From Pseudomonadota bacterium (GTDB lineage Bacteria; Pseudomonadota; Gammaproteobacteria; Burkholderiales; Sulfuriferulaceae), in assembly GCA_021786845.1 (NCBI GenBank), contig JAJYMO010000049.1:1-64000 (forward strand): 64,000 nt of DNA. The letters are read 5' to 3'. Shown one piece after another: positions 25,884 through 32,987 of this stretch. The notes beneath the pieces are model-generated. The model was not told the DNA's origin. It made no database searches and was given only the letters and a program-made list of their open reading frames with translations. Positions within the stretch are counted from its first letter, which is position 1; every line of letters starts with the position of its first letter. A program made the translations under genes and the position numbers.

Positions 25884-26372
25884 TTACATCGACGGATCAA
25901 CTACATAATGTTTCCGCGCTTGTAAAAATGCCACTTCGGCAAAACCTGAAGGCACAATATCGCTTTCCTTGACCCCATAAAGGGTATGGTAATCAATACC
26001 CAATTCCATTAATGAATTATTGCACACCATAAATTGTACGCCGTGACTGCGTAAATTATCGAGTTGGGCCTTTTGATCATCAGTAGGCGTTTTCAGCCAG
26101 GCCAACCCCTTGGCATACATCACCACTTTAACATTGAGCTTGCCGCCCCAAGTGTCCATGGCCTTGAGTGAATTAGCGATATTGCGCAGCTTCATGGGCA
26201 ACACCATTTCATTCGTTAAAGCCACCACCACATTCATTTCGCCGTATTGATCATGGGTAATGTGGGGCTTGACATAAGCCGAAGCCGGTGCGGCGTCATC
26301 GGCAAAAACAGGTGCGCTGAAGGCCAATGCGCTGGCGAACAAAGCCAGCGTTAATTTATGTTGAAGTTTCAT
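25884..26372 (-). CDS. Exported DsrE-family protein
   Basis: Signal peptide MKLQHKLTLALFASALAFSAPVFADDA; DsrE-like core KVVMYAKGLAWL...GVQFMVCNNSLMELGI...IVPSGFAEVAFLQARKHYVV. Confidence 0.85.
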   Translation of the reverse strand: MKLQHKLTLALFASALAFSAPVFADDAAPASAYVKPHITHDQYGEMNVVVALTNEMVLPMKLRNIANSLKAMDTWGGKLNVKVVMYAKGLAWLKTPTDDQKAQLDNLRSHGVQFMVCNNSLMELGIDYHTLYGVKESDIVPSGFAEVAFLQARKHYVVDPSM

Positions 26373-26460: not shown

Positions 26461-28179
26461 TTAACAGTGGGTTTCCAGCCCGGGATTGTTGCCCACACCC
26501 AATAATTTTGGTTCATTGATATGGCGCAGGTTGACGGTTTTAATGTCGCGCAGATATTCGGAGACCACATCCCATATGGGCGCGCCGGTGGCGCCTTCGG
26601 CCATGGGTGCCCAGCCTGCCACTTTGTAGGTTTTTGACGGAGATATTGGTTTGCCATGCAAAGTCATACCGCTAATGCGTTGCCCGCTCGCGGCATTGGG
26701 ATTGATGCTGTAGTGCATCCCGCCAACACGGATCATGTCACCGCCTTGTTGCAGATAGGGGTCAGGGTTGAACAAATTGTCGCACACGTCCTCCATGATC
26801 GATTTAATGGTGTCGCCGCGCATTTCAGTCAACGTGGTGGCGGGGTAAGTGATGGCAGTTTGATCCATCAAGTGTTCCATGTTGATGGTGTCACCGGGCA
26901 ATAAACTGGTGCCCCAACGGAATCCGGGCGAGAATGAAATTTCAGCATTTTTGACTTTCATCAGGGCATCCATGATGACCTGGTCGAAGCTACCAATAAA
27001 GTTGTCACGGCGGTAAAGCAGACTCTCAGTCTCGGCAAGTGGTTGACTCAATTGCGAGGCGTAAGGTACGCGCATGGTGTTGATCCATGCCGTCATGTTT
27101 GGATCTGCGGGCAATAAATTAGAAAACACCGGCATGAGTCGATAACGCCAATCCTGCAATTTGCCATTGCGCACATCAAAGTCCATCACACCCAGAAATT
27201 TGCCATTGGATCCCGCATTGGTGACCAAAGTGGTGCCGGACGCATTCTTGACAGGGACAGGACGTGGCACGCCATCGTGGGTGTGTCCACCGAAGATGAC
27301 ATCAATGCCGGTCACGCGAGAGGCCAGTTTCAAATCCACATCCATGCCATTGTGCGACAGCAGCACCACGATTTGCGCACCCTTGGCGCGCACTGTGTTG
27401 ACATGCGTCTGTAAACCTTCCTCCTGAATACCAAACTGCCAGTCCGGCACCAAATAACGGGGGTGTGAAATTGGCACATAGGGGAAAGCCTGACCGATGA
27501 TCGCCACTTGTACGCCATTGATCGATTTAATGACCCAGGGCTTAAATACCGGATCGCCGAAATCTTTGGTGGTCACATTTTGAGCGATAAAATCAATGTG
27601 TCCGGTTAAATCTTTGTTAATGATGTCCATGACACGGTCTGCACCATAGGTAAATTCCCAATGGGCGGTCATCACATCCACCCCCAGCAATTTGCTGGCA
27701 TCCACCATGTCCTGCGCCTTGCTCCACAACGCGGTCGCTGAACCCTGCCAGGTGTCACCGCCATCCAGCAACAGGCTATTGGGACGCGAAGCGCGTACTT
27801 GATCAACCAGTGTCTTCAAGTGGGCAAAACCGCCCACTTTGCCATAGCGCTGGGCTGCAGCACGGAAATCCAGGCAGGTGAGCGCATACGCCTCTTTGGT
27901 GCCAGGACGCAGGCCGTAATAGCGCAGGAAGTGCTCGCCCACCAAATGGGGAGGCTGGCCTTTCGCTGCACCCACGCCGATGTTGATATTGGGTTCACGG
28001 AAATAAATGGGTAATAACTGGGCATGACAATCGGTCATGTGCATCAAGGACACATTACCGAAAGCAGGCAAGTCGTAAAACCCTGTTGCTTCGCCGGCCA
28101 ATGCAGACCGGCTGTTTAATACGGCACCTGAGGCGGCCGCAGTGGCCAATAATTGTATAAATTCGCGACGGTTCATCAT
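26461..28179 (-). CDS. soxB: Thiosulfohydrolase SoxB
   Basis: Tat-like N-terminus MMNRREFIQLL; MTDCHAQLLPIYFREPNINIGVG, LLDGGDTWQGSATALW, VVLLSHNGMDVDLKLASRVTGIDVIFGGHTHDG. Confidence 0.96.
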   Translation of the reverse strand: MMNRREFIQLLATAAASGAVLNSRSALAGEATGFYDLPAFGNVSLMHMTDCHAQLLPIYFREPNINIGVGAAKGQPPHLVGEHFLRYYGLRPGTKEAYALTCLDFRAAAQRYGKVGGFAHLKTLVDQVRASRPNSLLLDGGDTWQGSATALWSKAQDMVDASKLLGVDVMTAHWEFTYGADRVMDIINKDLTGHIDFIAQNVTTKDFGDPVFKPWVIKSINGVQVAIIGQAFPYVPISHPRYLVPDWQFGIQEEGLQTHVNTVRAKGAQIVVLLSHNGMDVDLKLASRVTGIDVIFGGHTHDGVPRPVPVKNASGTTLVTNAGSNGKFLGVMDFDVRNGKLQDWRYRLMPVFSNLLPADPNMTAWINTMRVPYASQLSQPLAETESLLYRRDNFIGSFDQVIMDALMKVKNAEISFSPGFRWGTSLLPGDTINMEHLMDQTAITYPATTLTEMRGDTIKSIMEDVCDNLFNPDPYLQQGGDMIRVGGMHYSINPNAASGQRISGMTLHGKPISPSKTYKVAGWAPMAEGATGAPIWDVVSEYLRDIKTVNLRHINEPKLLGVGNNPGLETHC

Positions 28180-28275: not shown

Positions 28276-28596
28276 TCAGCTGATGGTGGTTTGCAACGTG
28301 TCGCTGTCACCGAGATTGTCTGACCAATGGATAGCGAGCGCGTCACCTGCCTTGGCACCTTTTACCCGAAAATCAAAGAAAGGGTTTTTAGAAATCGCAA
28401 TACCCAAATCTGCGTCGAGCACCGTTTTACCATTTAGGGTAACGGTGAGTTGTTTGATAAAGTGCGCAGGAATCACTTCGCCGGTCTTGGCATTTTTGAT
28501 TAAACCAGTGTCCATAGGGTGCATGATCAATATTTTAATGTCCGCCACGCCACCGGTACTCATCTTTGCCCGCGCTTTAATGCTGTGTTGTGCCAT
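28276..28596 (-). CDS. soxZ: Thiosulfate oxidation carrier complex protein SoxZ
   Basis: 106 aa; KILIMHPMDTGLIKNAKTGEVIPAHFIKQLTVTLNGKTVLDADLGIAISKNPFFDFRVKGAKAGD. Confidence 0.95.
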   Translation of the reverse strand: MAQHSIKARAKMSTGGVADIKILIMHPMDTGLIKNAKTGEVIPAHFIKQLTVTLNGKTVLDADLGIAISKNPFFDFRVKGAKAGDALAIHWSDNLGDSDTLQTTIS

Positions 28597-28695: not shown

Positions 28696-29151
28696 TTAAC
28701 CGCCGCAACCGCCAGCAGTCACTTTAATCATTTTTGCTGCTGTCCACGCCTTGCCGTCAGCGATGACGATGGCACGCACATTCGCGGTTTTGCCCATTTT
28801 AATCTTGGTACCAATAAATGGCAGGGCACCATTGCTGAACCTGAAACTGGCAGCCAAAGGATTAGGGTTTTGTTCGGCAATGATATCAATCCGTTGGGTA
28901 TTGGGTATGCTGCTGGTCACTTCAACAGGCACAACTGAACCGTCTTCAGCAATATCCGGCGCCATCAACAGGATATCCGGACTGTCAACAAGCGTCAGAT
29001 TACCCAGGTCTTTGAGCACGGCGGGAACGGTTTTGGCGCCAAATGCACTGGCATTCCAGTCTGCAAAGGCATTGCGGGTTGCAGACAACAAACCCAGCAT
29101 GGCAACCATGCCGCCCGCTTTGCTAAAAAATGTACGACGAGAAATATTCAT
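28696..29151 (-). CDS. soxY: Thiosulfate oxidation carrier protein SoxY
   Basis: Start MNISRRTFFSKAGGMVAMLGLL (Tat-like); C-terminal substrate-carrier motif VTAGGCGG. Confidence 0.96.
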   Translation of the reverse strand: MNISRRTFFSKAGGMVAMLGLLSATRNAFADWNASAFGAKTVPAVLKDLGNLTLVDSPDILLMAPDIAEDGSVVPVEVTSSIPNTQRIDIIAEQNPNPLAASFRFSNGALPFIGTKIKMGKTANVRAIVIADGKAWTAAKMIKVTAGGCGG

Positions 29152-29212: not shown

Positions 29213-29740
29213 TTATTGTGCAGGCTTGTCCTGTGGGCTGGGTAAAGCCAAAGCATAACCCAATTGCTCGTAATGGGCGATGGTCGGATAGGCGCCGGGA
29301 TTCACAACAGCGGGCGTACTTTCACTTAATCCGTCCATGTCTTGGGGTTTCAGACCTGCGCCATGCACGGAATTACCGCAGAATTCAACTTGTATGCCCT
29401 TGTTCGCCAAATCCGCCCAGCCATCGACAGCACCCTGATGATCAAGGTAGTTTTTCTTGGCAAACATCGCGACTTCTGGGCCTTCAATCACCACGATCAG
29501 TTTGGTCCCGGGGTATGCTGTAATCCGTTTGGCGACCATCAATCCAAATGAAACATCGCTGATGTAATGCGCCTTTAAATCCATCACAACTTTGAGGTTG
29601 TGAAATTGTTCTGTAGAGTGATCAATAGCGGTACCACCCGGTGCAAAGCTGTCGTCATCACTGGCCAGAGCTGGCGCCTGTGCCAGCAGCAGGGCGCTGG
29701 CAAGAGAAAGTAACATGGTCACTGAACTAATTTTTTTCAT
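29213..29740 (-). CDS. Exported DsrE-family protein
   Basis: Signal peptide MKKISSVTMLLSLASALLLAQAPALA; LKVVMDLKAHYISDVSFGLMVAKRI..LIVVIEGPEVAMF..KGIQVEFCGNSV. Confidence 0.83.
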   Translation of the reverse strand: MKKISSVTMLLSLASALLLAQAPALASDDDSFAPGGTAIDHSTEQFHNLKVVMDLKAHYISDVSFGLMVAKRITAYPGTKLIVVIEGPEVAMFAKKNYLDHQGAVDGWADLANKGIQVEFCGNSVHGAGLKPQDMDGLSESTPAVVNPGAYPTIAHYEQLGYALALPSPQDKPAQ

Positions 29741-29947: not shown

Positions 29948-29977
29948 TAAGACGGCACAGATGGAAGTTTATTCCAA
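29948..29977 (-). promoter_or_regulatory. Putative ECF-type promoter P2 driving dsrE-soxY-soxZ-soxB-dsrE
   Basis: Minus strand TTGGAATAAACTTCCATCTGTGCCGTCTTA: -35-like GGAATA (29970-29975), 15-nt spacer, -10-like CGTCTTA (29948-29954). Confidence 0.6.
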
Positions 29978-30010: not shown

Positions 30011-30040
30011 TGGAATAAGAATACAGCATGCCACGTCTTA
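30011..30040 (+). promoter_or_regulatory. Putative ECF-type promoter P1 driving the sigma/anti-sigma operon
   Basis: TGGAATAAGAATACAGCATGCCACGTCTTA: -35-like GGAATA (30012-30017), 16-nt spacer, -10-like CGTCTTA (30034-30040); same motif as P2 on the opposite strand. Confidence 0.62.
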
Positions 30041-30083: not shown

Positions 30084-30644
30084 ATGACCATTTTTTCTCT
30101 GTTTTGCCGGGCGAACGCTTTTGATCAGCAGTTTGCGCAAATCCGTCCGAGGCTCTATCGAACGGCCTATTCATGGTGCCACAATGCAGCGATTGCGGAT
30201 GATTTGGTGCAAGAGGCGCTGACCAAGGGCATCAAGTCTATCGCACAACTGCATGACCCGGCACAATTCAACAGCTGGCTGTTCAGAATCATGACCAATT
30301 GCTGGCGCGACTATTTCCGGCAACACCGGGAAATGGATGATGTGGATGACATGGACGATTGCCTGTGCGTCAACGACATCACACCGGAAGACGAACATGC
30401 TCAATCGCAAATCATCTACCGCGTGCGTGAAGCCGTGATGAAACTGCCAATGGGGCAACGTCAAGTGGTCACGCTGGTCGACCTGGAAGAATTTTCTTAT
30501 GCCGAAGTGGCAGCGATACTGGCGATACCCGTGGGTACAGTGATGAGCCGCCTGTGCCGCGCACGCCAGTCGTTACAAATTTTACTTAAAGCACATGCGC
30601 CGCAAATGGCTGCAAAAAACAACCTCTTGAGGAGGGTCAAGTAA
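30084..30644 (+). CDS. ECF-family RNA polymerase sigma factor
   Basis: Sigma region 2 (LYRTAYSWCHNAAIADDLVQEALTKGIKSI...FNSWLFRIMTNCWRDYFRQ) and region 4 (VREAVMKLPMGQRQVVTLVDLEEFSYAEVAAILAIPVGTVMSRLCRARQSL). Confidence 0.93.
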   Translation: MTIFSLFCRANAFDQQFAQIRPRLYRTAYSWCHNAAIADDLVQEALTKGIKSIAQLHDPAQFNSWLFRIMTNCWRDYFRQHREMDDVDDMDDCLCVNDITPEDEHAQSQIIYRVREAVMKLPMGQRQVVTLVDLEEFSYAEVAAILAIPVGTVMSRLCRARQSLQILLKAHAPQMAAKNNLLRRVK

Positions 30645-31378
30645 TGGAAAATAAAAATGTTTCAGACGAACTGCTCAATGCTTTTCTCGACAATGAATTG
30701 GCAGAGACTGACCGCAGCAAGCTTTTTCAAGCCTTTGAACAGGATGAAACGCTGAAAACACGGGCATGTGAATTGCACAATTTGAAAGAATTAATGCAGC
30801 ATGCTTATCCGGTAGGCCCGGCGGAGGAGCCTCGTCCGGTGAAACACCGACACATTTGGCGCCGCATGTATTTACAGGGCCTTGCCGCGTCGTTGATGCT
30901 GTTGCTGTTTGGTGGATCATCAGGATGGATACTTTCAGCCGACGCCTCAGCAAAATCTTACCCCAAAGTCACGCACCTGATTAACACCATACAAAACGAC
31001 AACTTTGCGGAAGAACCCGACAAAATCATTGTTCAAGTCAGCAATTCCAATCCGGTCAGGTTGAAAGCAGCGCTTGATGAATCAGAAAACCTGCTCGAAA
31101 CATATCGAGTCACCAAACGACCACTTCAAATGGAGATTATCGCCAATGGCGGGGGACTGGATTTATTGCGCGCAGGCGTTTCTCCGTACGAAAAACGTCT
31201 GGCGACCATGCGGGCGAAATACCAGAATTTGCATTTCTACGCGTGCAATCTGACGATCAATTCCCTGAAAAAGAATGGTGTGAAAGTACGGCTTTTGCCT
31301 GGTACCGGAATTGCCACCTCGGCATTTGACGAAATCAATAATCGTGTACGTCAAGGCTGGGACTATGTACGCGTTTAA
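30644..31378 (+). CDS. Putative transmembrane anti-sigma factor with C-terminal DsrE-like domain
   Basis: Overlaps the sigma stop by 1 nt. N-terminal LLNAFLDNELAETDRSKLFQAFEQDETLKTRACELHNLKELM; TM LQGLAASLMLLLFGGSSGWIL; C-terminal DsrE-like LKAALDESENLLETY...QMEIIANGGGLDLL...LHFYACNLTINSLKKNGVKVRLLPGTG...IATSAFDEINNRVRQGWDYVRV. Confidence 0.75.
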   Translation: MENKNVSDELLNAFLDNELAETDRSKLFQAFEQDETLKTRACELHNLKELMQHAYPVGPAEEPRPVKHRHIWRRMYLQGLAASLMLLLFGGSSGWILSADASAKSYPKVTHLINTIQNDNFAEEPDKIIVQVSNSNPVRLKAALDESENLLETYRVTKRPLQMEIIANGGGLDLLRAGVSPYEKRLATMRAKYQNLHFYACNLTINSLKKNGVKVRLLPGTGIATSAFDEINNRVRQGWDYVRV

Positions 31379-31553: not shown

Positions 31554-32987
31554 ATGAAAAAAATAACTGCGATGAAGCTTGCGCTAGGTATGGGCGTAGG
31601 CTTGGGTTTGTGTGTGTGTCAACCGGCCAACGCTGCCAACTGGTTTAATATCCAAACCATTTCTTTACCTGAATGGGGTTCGGGACAATTCATCGGTTTT
31701 CTTCAACCACTTTATACAGATATTGCGGCCAGTCCGGTGGTCGTGAGTGGCTATCCCCATGCCCCGGCAAATGGTCAAACCGCCCACTTTAACCAGGTGG
31801 CGCCCACTTTTGATTCCAGCTCACAACTCTATATGCAACGTGCGCGGTTTTTTATACGCGGCAGCATCGGCGGCAACTCCGATATCTCTTATTATGTGGG
31901 TGCAGAAGCGGGTCAAAACGGCTATGACTACTCCTTTGGCCGGTATGCGCCCAGAATCATCGATGCGAACATGGTGTTCAGCCATTACATCCCGGGTGTA
32001 CGTTTGGAAATCGGTAACATCCGCGCGCCTGGGCCTGAGGGTGCAATGGAAGGTTTTATGGATTTTAATTTCCTCGATGCGTTTGGCTCAGGCTTGCAAC
32101 AGCTGATGCAACCGACATTCTATAACAATGGAATGAGATATAGCCAGGCCCCCGGAGGCGGGGGTCCGAATGGCGGCTACACAGTACCCGGTGGTGATGT
32201 GTCCGGCAACAATGGCTTCCGTTATCCCGGCATTCAGGCAGAAGACTGGTTTATGGTTGCACCAAAAGTTGAAGTGGCCTACGGTGCGATGCTGGCGGAT
32301 TATGGCCGGTTGCTGGATTCTGGCACTTCAAATGGACCCATTGTTGCGGGACGACTTCAGGCCTCTTATTTGCTCGGCAGTGAGCAGGGCCGTTTTTTCC
32401 GCAACGACCTGACAGGCTTCATTTGGGCACAAGCCGCGCATCCTGAAATAGGCGTGATGCCCGGACAACTCAGCCCATCTTCCAGCAACATGACCCGGGA
32501 TGGCTTTGGTATGACCTACCGCAAAGGCTATATGGAACGCGGTGGCCTTGACGTGAAAGCGGAATACTTCGAAGGCAGCGGAAACATTGCAGCGCCAGCG
32601 GTATTCAATCAAGCGCCCGGGATGGCGGCAGCACCTCAGTTGTATGACGAAGTCGTGTATGCGGGCAGCAACAATACGGCCAATGGTTATGATGTGTCAG
32701 CCGGGTATTTCTTGACCAAGCGCATCGAAGCAGTCCTGCGTTATGATTACTATGATCGTTTGCCCAACAATGCCGCAGCAGAACGCATGTTTAAAGACAC
32801 TTCATTAGCGCTCGAATACCATGTCACACCGTTGACCAGGGTGGTGGTGGATTATATTGACCGCTCCATTACCATTCCCAACCCCGGTGCAGTGGGTCCG
32901 GCAGGAAGTTTGGCCTTGACGCAGGCCTCGGCGATTGTCAACTCCATCGGTAATCAAATGGACGTTTGGGCGGTGTATGCGTTTTAA
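31554..32987 (+). CDS. Outer-membrane porin
   Basis: Signal peptide MKKITAMKLALGMGVGLGLCVCQPANA; beta-barrel-like alternation, phosphate-selective-porin-like (MQRARFFIRGSIGGNSDISYYVGAEAGQNG); ends with aromatic residue (VWAVYAF). Confidence 0.8.
   Translation: MKKITAMKLALGMGVGLGLCVCQPANAANWFNIQTISLPEWGSGQFIGFLQPLYTDIAASPVVVSGYPHAPANGQTAHFNQVAPTFDSSSQLYMQRARFFIRGSIGGNSDISYYVGAEAGQNGYDYSFGRYAPRIIDANMVFSHYIPGVRLEIGNIRAPGPEGAMEGFMDFNFLDAFGSGLQQLMQPTFYNNGMRYSQAPGGGGPNGGYTVPGGDVSGNNGFRYPGIQAEDWFMVAPKVEVAYGAMLADYGRLLDSGTSNGPIVAGRLQASYLLGSEQGRFFRNDLTGFIWAQAAHPEIGVMPGQLSPSSSNMTRDGFGMTYRKGYMERGGLDVKAEYFEGSGNIAAPAVFNQAPGMAAAPQLYDEVVYAGSNNTANGYDVSAGYFLTKRIEAVLRYDYYDRLPNNAAAERMFKDTSLALEYHVTPLTRVVVDYIDRSITIPNPGAVGPAGSLALTQASAIVNSIGNQMDVWAVYAF

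Follow-up and report, generated by a model that had tools for sequence, protein, structure and literature searches.

P0001, a transmembrane protein encoded directly after an ECF sigma factor gene, belongs to a family of predicted anti-sigma factors that carry a C-terminal DsrE domain. The gene pair lies in a 64,000-nucleotide stretch of DNA (the window; all coordinates refer to it) and probably signals to the cell that reduced sulfur is available. We consider it reasonably likely that the pair is a switch dedicated to periplasmic sulfur oxidation, a model for which there are no expression or biochemical data. What we observe is the domain architecture, the strict pairing of the two genes, the invariance of one cysteine (Cys201) in the DsrE domain, co-occurrence with SoxB and a common promoter pattern at both operons of the locus. 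Features are listed in Table 1.

Table 1. Features of the sigma/anti-sigma locus and the divergent sulfur gene cluster
Feature	Position	Strand	Evidence or remark
Second exported DsrE protein (dsrE2)	25884..26372	-	PF02635, 1.7e-8; aligned to anti-sigma DsrE profile, Cys matched
soxB	26461..28179	-	TIGR04486, 1.3e-264
soxZ	28276..28596	-	TIGR04490, 1.8e-35
soxY, start set at MNISRRTFF	28696..29151	-	TIGR04488, 3.5e-43
Exported DsrE-fold protein (dsrE1), first gene of divergent cluster	29213..29740	-	MTH1491 fold match, TM 0.84; Pfam DsrE E 0.0014, below cut-off
Predicted divergent promoter, GGAATA-N15-CGTC(TT), 208 nt before dsrE1	29949..29975	-	
Predicted sigma/anti-sigma promoter, GGAATA-N16-CGTC(TT), 44 nt before sigma ATG	30012..30039	+	
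ECF sigma factor, predicted cognate partner	30084..30644	+	Pfam Sigma70_r2 2e-14, r4_2 6.8e-16; regions 2 and 4 only
P0001, predicted transmembrane anti-sigma factor with C-terminal DsrE domain, 244 aa	30644..31378	+	ORF, profile, AlphaFold2, Foldseek; 66-member alignment
Predicted anti-sigma domain of P0001, residues 1-57, RseA/MucA-like	30644..30814	+	Profile matches, RseA_N matches, three modelled helices
Cys42 codon, cytoplasmic anti-sigma domain	30767..30769	+	58/66 members
Predicted transmembrane helix of P0001, residues about 78-98	30875..30937	+	Hydropathy, flanking charge, conserved G-x3-GW
DsrE domain of P0001, residues 125-244, predicted periplasmic	31016..31375	+	Profile, AlphaFold2, Foldseek
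Cys201 codon, invariant DsrE Cys, end of third strand	31244..31246	+	66/66 anti-sigmas
Outer-membrane porin	31554..32987	+	Relatives match Porin_O_P; operon membership not shown

Domain architecture of P0001

The ATG of P0001 overlaps the stop codon of the sigma gene by 1 nt (AAGTAATGG), as a preliminary description of this DNA had stated and the coordinates confirm, and is preceded by a ribosome site, GAGGAGG. Taken alone, the P0001 sequence has no significant match in Pfam or NCBIfam, and its best sequence match in the PDB is MTH1491, at E = 0.01. Over its C-terminal 117 positions, a family profile built from 37 members matches MTH1491 (1L1S, E = 8.8e-20) and ST0148 (2PD2, 5e-10); over its first 51 it matches MucA (6IN7, 0.009) and RseA (8Z6G, 0.019). 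The MucA and RseA scores are modest; both alignments run N-terminus to N-terminus. Among the 37 members, PF03872 (RseA_N) is found in five (best E = 1.1e-4) and PF02635 (DsrE) in 12, P0001 not being one of the 12.

AlphaFold2 models three N-terminal helices (residues 8-54), a long membrane-crossing helix and a confident alpha/beta domain, with pLDDT >90 at residues 11-50 and 131-244. When the C-terminal domain was submitted to Foldseek, MTH1491 came first (TM 0.89 on target), then ST0148 and YchN, with DsrEFH next at slightly above E = 0.001. The profile and fold matches rule out a chance likeness to DsrE. P0001 has one hydrophobic segment, whose best 19-residue window begins at residue 79, with five lysines or arginines before it and two after. 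Because the hydrophobic stretch is single and its flanking charge follows the positive-inside pattern, the topology is predicted, on these grounds only, to be N-in/C-out.

As far as profiles and models can tell, P0001 is an RseA/MucA-like (non-zinc) anti-sigma domain followed by one transmembrane helix and a DsrE domain; sigma binding is inferred. The preliminary description had proposed this layout in outline. Its anti-sigma-like N-terminus is borne out by the MucA/RseA and RseA_N matches and the modelled helices, its single transmembrane helix with an extracytoplasmic DsrE domain agrees with the predicted topology, and its DsrE-like fold is upheld by the profile, the AlphaFold2 model and Foldseek. 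The DsrE region itself stands, with its start moved from residue 110 to about 125. Absent from that description were the family nature of P0001 and the conserved Cys42 on the cytoplasmic side.

The only cysteines of P0001 are Cys42, in its anti-sigma domain, and Cys201, in its DsrE domain. A zinc anti-sigma (ZAS) identity was rejected: Hx3Cx2C is absent, and the N-terminal part has a single cysteine and no CxxC. Matches to zf-HC2 in the family are weak (best 0.004).

Family distribution and residue conservation

The family occurs in 37 of 300 Burkholderiales genomes, spread over 17 genera (E <= 1e-12). In the gammaproteobacterial sample, 74 of 369 genomes match the profile (E <= 1e-25), 66 being counted as full-length. 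Carriers make up about 12% of the sampled Burkholderiales genomes and 18% of the sampled gammaproteobacterial genomes. Full-length homologues of P0001 are found within the same genus and beyond, and the 66 members in many families rule out a one-off fusion or an assembly error.

Across 399 Pseudomonadota genomes, matches outside the Burkholderiales and gammaproteobacterial groups cover the DsrE part only, and no comparable sigma gene lies within 1.5 kb of those that were fetched. A plasmid search returned only Azospirillum matches, to the DsrE half, and a PHROGs search returned no match. Outside the class, the DsrE-type proteins of two loci (L118, L119) adjoin soxB without a sigma pair, which suggests a Sox-linked role of their own.

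Cys201 and Asp16 are present in all 66 aligned anti-sigmas and Cys42 in 58. All 46 exported DsrE relatives encoded nearby also have the equivalent of Cys201; what its invariance shows is therefore use of the cysteine, not sensing. The preliminary description had aligned Cys201 with a cysteine in each of the two exported DsrE proteins of the window. For dsrE2 the profile alignment does place Cys201 on the cysteine of VCNNS. For dsrE1 the profile gave no match; support comes from its model (Table 1), in which Cys121 ends the equivalent strand.

Four anti-sigmas from one genus (family f50; L091, L092, L093 and L094) have DsrE domains nested among the exported DsrE proteins (SH-aLRT 98 and 97), and all four lack Cys42. 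These domains possibly reflect domain exchange or a second fusion, judged from sequence relationships that the AU test leaves undecided: a single clade of anti-sigma DsrE domains is not rejected in either of two trees (p = 0.45 and 0.39). In the tree with added sequences, the AU p value for a single origin was 0.002 with row E_L024, an anti-sigma fragment, and 0.39 without it; two putative origins are only suggested.

Sigma partner, gene neighborhood and co-occurrence with SoxB

A sigma homologue lies directly upstream of the anti-sigma gene in all 65 loci read. This strict linkage, with the profile and the structure prediction, supports pairing of P0001 with the adjacent ECF sigma factor, as the preliminary description had supposed. 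The divergent cluster of the window has the order dsrE1-soxY-soxZ-soxB-dsrE2. A separate exported DsrE-type protein is encoded near 44 of the 65 loci, divergently from sigma at 41, and is missing from the vicinity of the other 21. Porin homologues occur at 36 loci and sox genes at 15; at least one of DsrE, porin and sox is found at 55, and none of the three at 10.

At two loci (L050, L083), soxY-soxZ copies flank the sigma/anti-sigma pair on both sides and are almost equally identical to those of the window, an arrangement that looks like a duplication around the pair. At three gammaproteobacterial loci (L155, L166, L170), the pair has its own promoter site, lacks a sulfur gene in its vicinity and sits beside glnE- and ilvE-like genes, identified as such from sequence reading only.

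SoxB is present in all 37 Burkholderiales carriers, compared with 141 of 300 genomes overall (47%). At the genus level this becomes 17 of 17 carrier genera versus 62 of 134 (p = 5e-7). In the gammaproteobacterial sample, 65 of 66 carriers have SoxB versus 150 of 369 genomes overall (41%; Fisher 5e-29). The carrier and SoxB lists of the Burkholderiales sample were matched by eye, and the p values are inflated by common ancestry. This near-perfect co-occurrence and the common promoter tie the pair to sulfur oxidation more strongly than the preliminary description knew. One genome of the same genus (G017) has soxB and no anti-sigma match; the switch is therefore not essential to Sox use.

Promoter and predicted regulon core

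When the sigma upstream regions are set side by side, the usual promoter form is ATGGAATAA, with CGTCTTA on the -10 side. The pattern GGAATA-N16-CGTC was found in 60 of 64 sigma upstream regions, against 0.065 expected under a Markov model. The two predicted promoters in Table 1 are the sole pattern matches in the 64 kb window. An opposite-strand copy is present in 38 sigma upstream regions: among the 43 loci where an exported DsrE protein or a porin is encoded divergently, 35 have it, versus three of the 21 others (p = 3e-7; loci were assigned to these groups by hand). Genome-wide there are five strict sites (three for a reversed-pattern control), two of them in this intergenic region. The conserved core of the regulon therefore appears to be local, comprising sigma/anti-sigma and the divergent sulfur genes.

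These neighborhood and promoter data bear on two other readings of P0001. It could act mainly as a membrane-anchored sulfur carrier or sulfurtransferase for the Sox pathway, its anti-sigma part being vestigial; DsrE members are known as sulfur carriers, and the gene is beside soxYZB. We regard this as highly improbable given the strong conservation of the anti-sigma part (Asp16 in 66/66), a sigma gene that is always adjacent and a promoter predicted to be autoregulatory. Alternatively, the pair could be a generic envelope or redox stress switch of the RseA/MucA type, in which cytoplasmic Cys42 or proteolysis senses and the DsrE domain is a mere scaffold. The RseA/MucA-like N-terminus and the presence of Cys42 in 58 of 66 members would suit such a switch; a predicted core regulon that is local and sulfur-related, the SoxB co-occurrence and the lower conservation of Cys42 relative to Cys201 would not, and we judge it unlikely.

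Proposed mechanism

RseA-type anti-sigma factors retain sigma at the membrane and give it up on a periplasmic signal, and DsrE family members are sulfur carriers that hold sulfur on a conserved cysteine. In the sulfur oxidation switch that we propose, the RseA-like N-terminal domain would keep sigma at the membrane when no reduced sulfur is available. The periplasmic DsrE domain would then load a sulfur group on Cys201, either sulfane sulfur or a thiosulfonate from tetrathionate or thiosulfate, directly or by transfer from the similar exported DsrE proteins. Loaded Cys201 would alter the membrane protein, whether in conformation, oligomer state or protease sensitivity, and sigma would be freed. 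Once free, sigma would act at GGAATA-N16-CGTC promoters to transcribe two sets of genes, its own operon and the divergent genes for exported DsrE, Sox and/or porin. Sigma binding, the ligand, the cysteine chemistry and the release step are inferred, and so is the direct sensing of sulfane sulfur or thiosulfate, coupled to sigma release, that the preliminary description had suggested.

Cys201 loading is favored as the signal because DsrE relatives carry sulfur on that never-varying cysteine and because there is a precedent in Metallosphaera. There, the cysteines of DsrE3A take thiosulfate from tetrathionate, and no reaction with thiosulfate, sulfide or polysulfide was seen in vitro (PMC4175335). 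Since the Metallosphaera protein reacts with tetrathionate and not with thiosulfate, tetrathionate or a protein-bound sulfur group is a better candidate than free thiosulfate. DsrE3A is cytoplasmic and of another subfamily, whereas the anti-sigma DsrE domain is predicted to be periplasmic.

It is also conceivable, if doubtful, that the DsrE domain has no reaction of its own with small sulfur compounds and serves as a docking site, reading the sulfur load or the amount of exported DsrE through mixed oligomers and releasing sigma. DsrE, DsrF and DsrH do form mixed oligomers, and exported DsrE genes are near 44 of 65 loci, 41 of them divergent to sigma with the same promoter type. The nesting of the four f50 domains among exported DsrE (SH-aLRT 98 and 97) points the same way and would fit interchange between the two, although one origin remains compatible with the AU test (p = 0.45 and 0.39). 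Docking leaves the 21 loci without a nearby exported DsrE to be explained, and docking alone does not require an invariant Cys201. In a bolder reading, the periplasmic DsrE domain would itself receive, directly, a sulfur group that the Sox/exported-DsrE machinery delivers, and persulfide or thiosulfonate chemistry on one cysteine would be relayed across the membrane to the sigma factor that runs the Sox genes. ECF signalling in Gammaproteobacteria would thereby gain a new class; on present evidence the claim could go either way.

Relation to known systems

P0001 resembles RseA-RpoE of E. coli and MucA-AlgU of Pseudomonas in having an N-terminal non-zinc anti-sigma domain, one transmembrane helix and a periplasmic C-terminal domain, encoded directly after sigma. 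In RseA and MucA the periplasmic part is an RseB-binding or protease-controlled region, whereas in P0001 it is a DsrE domain with an invariant cysteine; the regulon is envelope stress for those systems and is predicted to be Sox/exported DsrE here. MTH1491 (1L1S), ST0148 (2PD2), E. coli YchN and DsrEFH/TusBCD (DsrE/DsrF family, PF02635) have the same fold and the same cysteine position. Known DsrE/DsrF proteins are free-standing, in contrast to the P0001 domain, which is fused through a transmembrane helix to an anti-sigma domain and predicted to be periplasmic. DsrEFH/TusBCD is a cytoplasmic hexamer of three different DsrE-type subunits, whereas P0001 has a single DsrE domain on the predicted periplasmic side.

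Regulatory parallels include ECF/anti-sigma pairs of group ECF26. RpoE1/RpoE4 of Sinorhizobium meliloti and SigE/RpoE1 of Starkeya novella control sulfite oxidation; they are activated by sulfur compounds and control sulfur-oxidizing enzymes (PMC3511301, PMC6527743). These pairs are alphaproteobacterial and target sorT and sorAB, whereas the predicted targets here are sox, exported DsrE and porin genes (PMC3511301, PMC6527743). A DsrE anti-sigma domain is not mentioned for ECF26 pairs in PMC3511301 and was not found in the accessible portion of PMC6527743. In Arcobacter butzleri, ECF sigma2 and sigma7 act on soxCDXYZAB, likewise ECF control of sox; their regulons are broad and overlapping, and DsrE is not mentioned (PMC3445524). 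Hyphomicrobium denitrificans has sulfur-responsive sox control with a membrane component, SoxR with SoxT1B (PMC10451225, PMC11582611). Unlike the P0001 system, this is a repressor with a YeeE-like transporter and no sigma factor.

A full-text literature search found no paper joining DsrE and an anti-sigma factor; many journals and the curated ECF classification were outside its reach. The ECF/anti-sigma principle is known, and as far as could be checked the DsrE sensor domain and the sulfur-oxidation role are not. The sensing of external sulfur by the regulators of sulfur oxidizers has been described as poorly understood (PMC11582611). The P0001 family is a concrete candidate for such a sensor: its cysteine and its promoter can be specified, and the regulon predicted for it is small.

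Promoter sites away from the locus

A wider regulon was not supported: the 12 genomes scanned do not share the same strict sites outside the locus, and in the window's own genome such sites are near the reversed-pattern control. There are exceptions. In G014 the promoter pattern occurs 111 nt upstream of another exported DsrE gene of the MTH1491 type, distant from the sigma locus (L187, G014:C20:281106). A strict GGAATA-N16-CGTCTT site also lies 173-192 nt before an RND-type transporter gene at L184 (G000:C48:14189-14217) and L185 (G008:C3:81333-81361); with the site kept in two species, this gene may be a distant regulon member.
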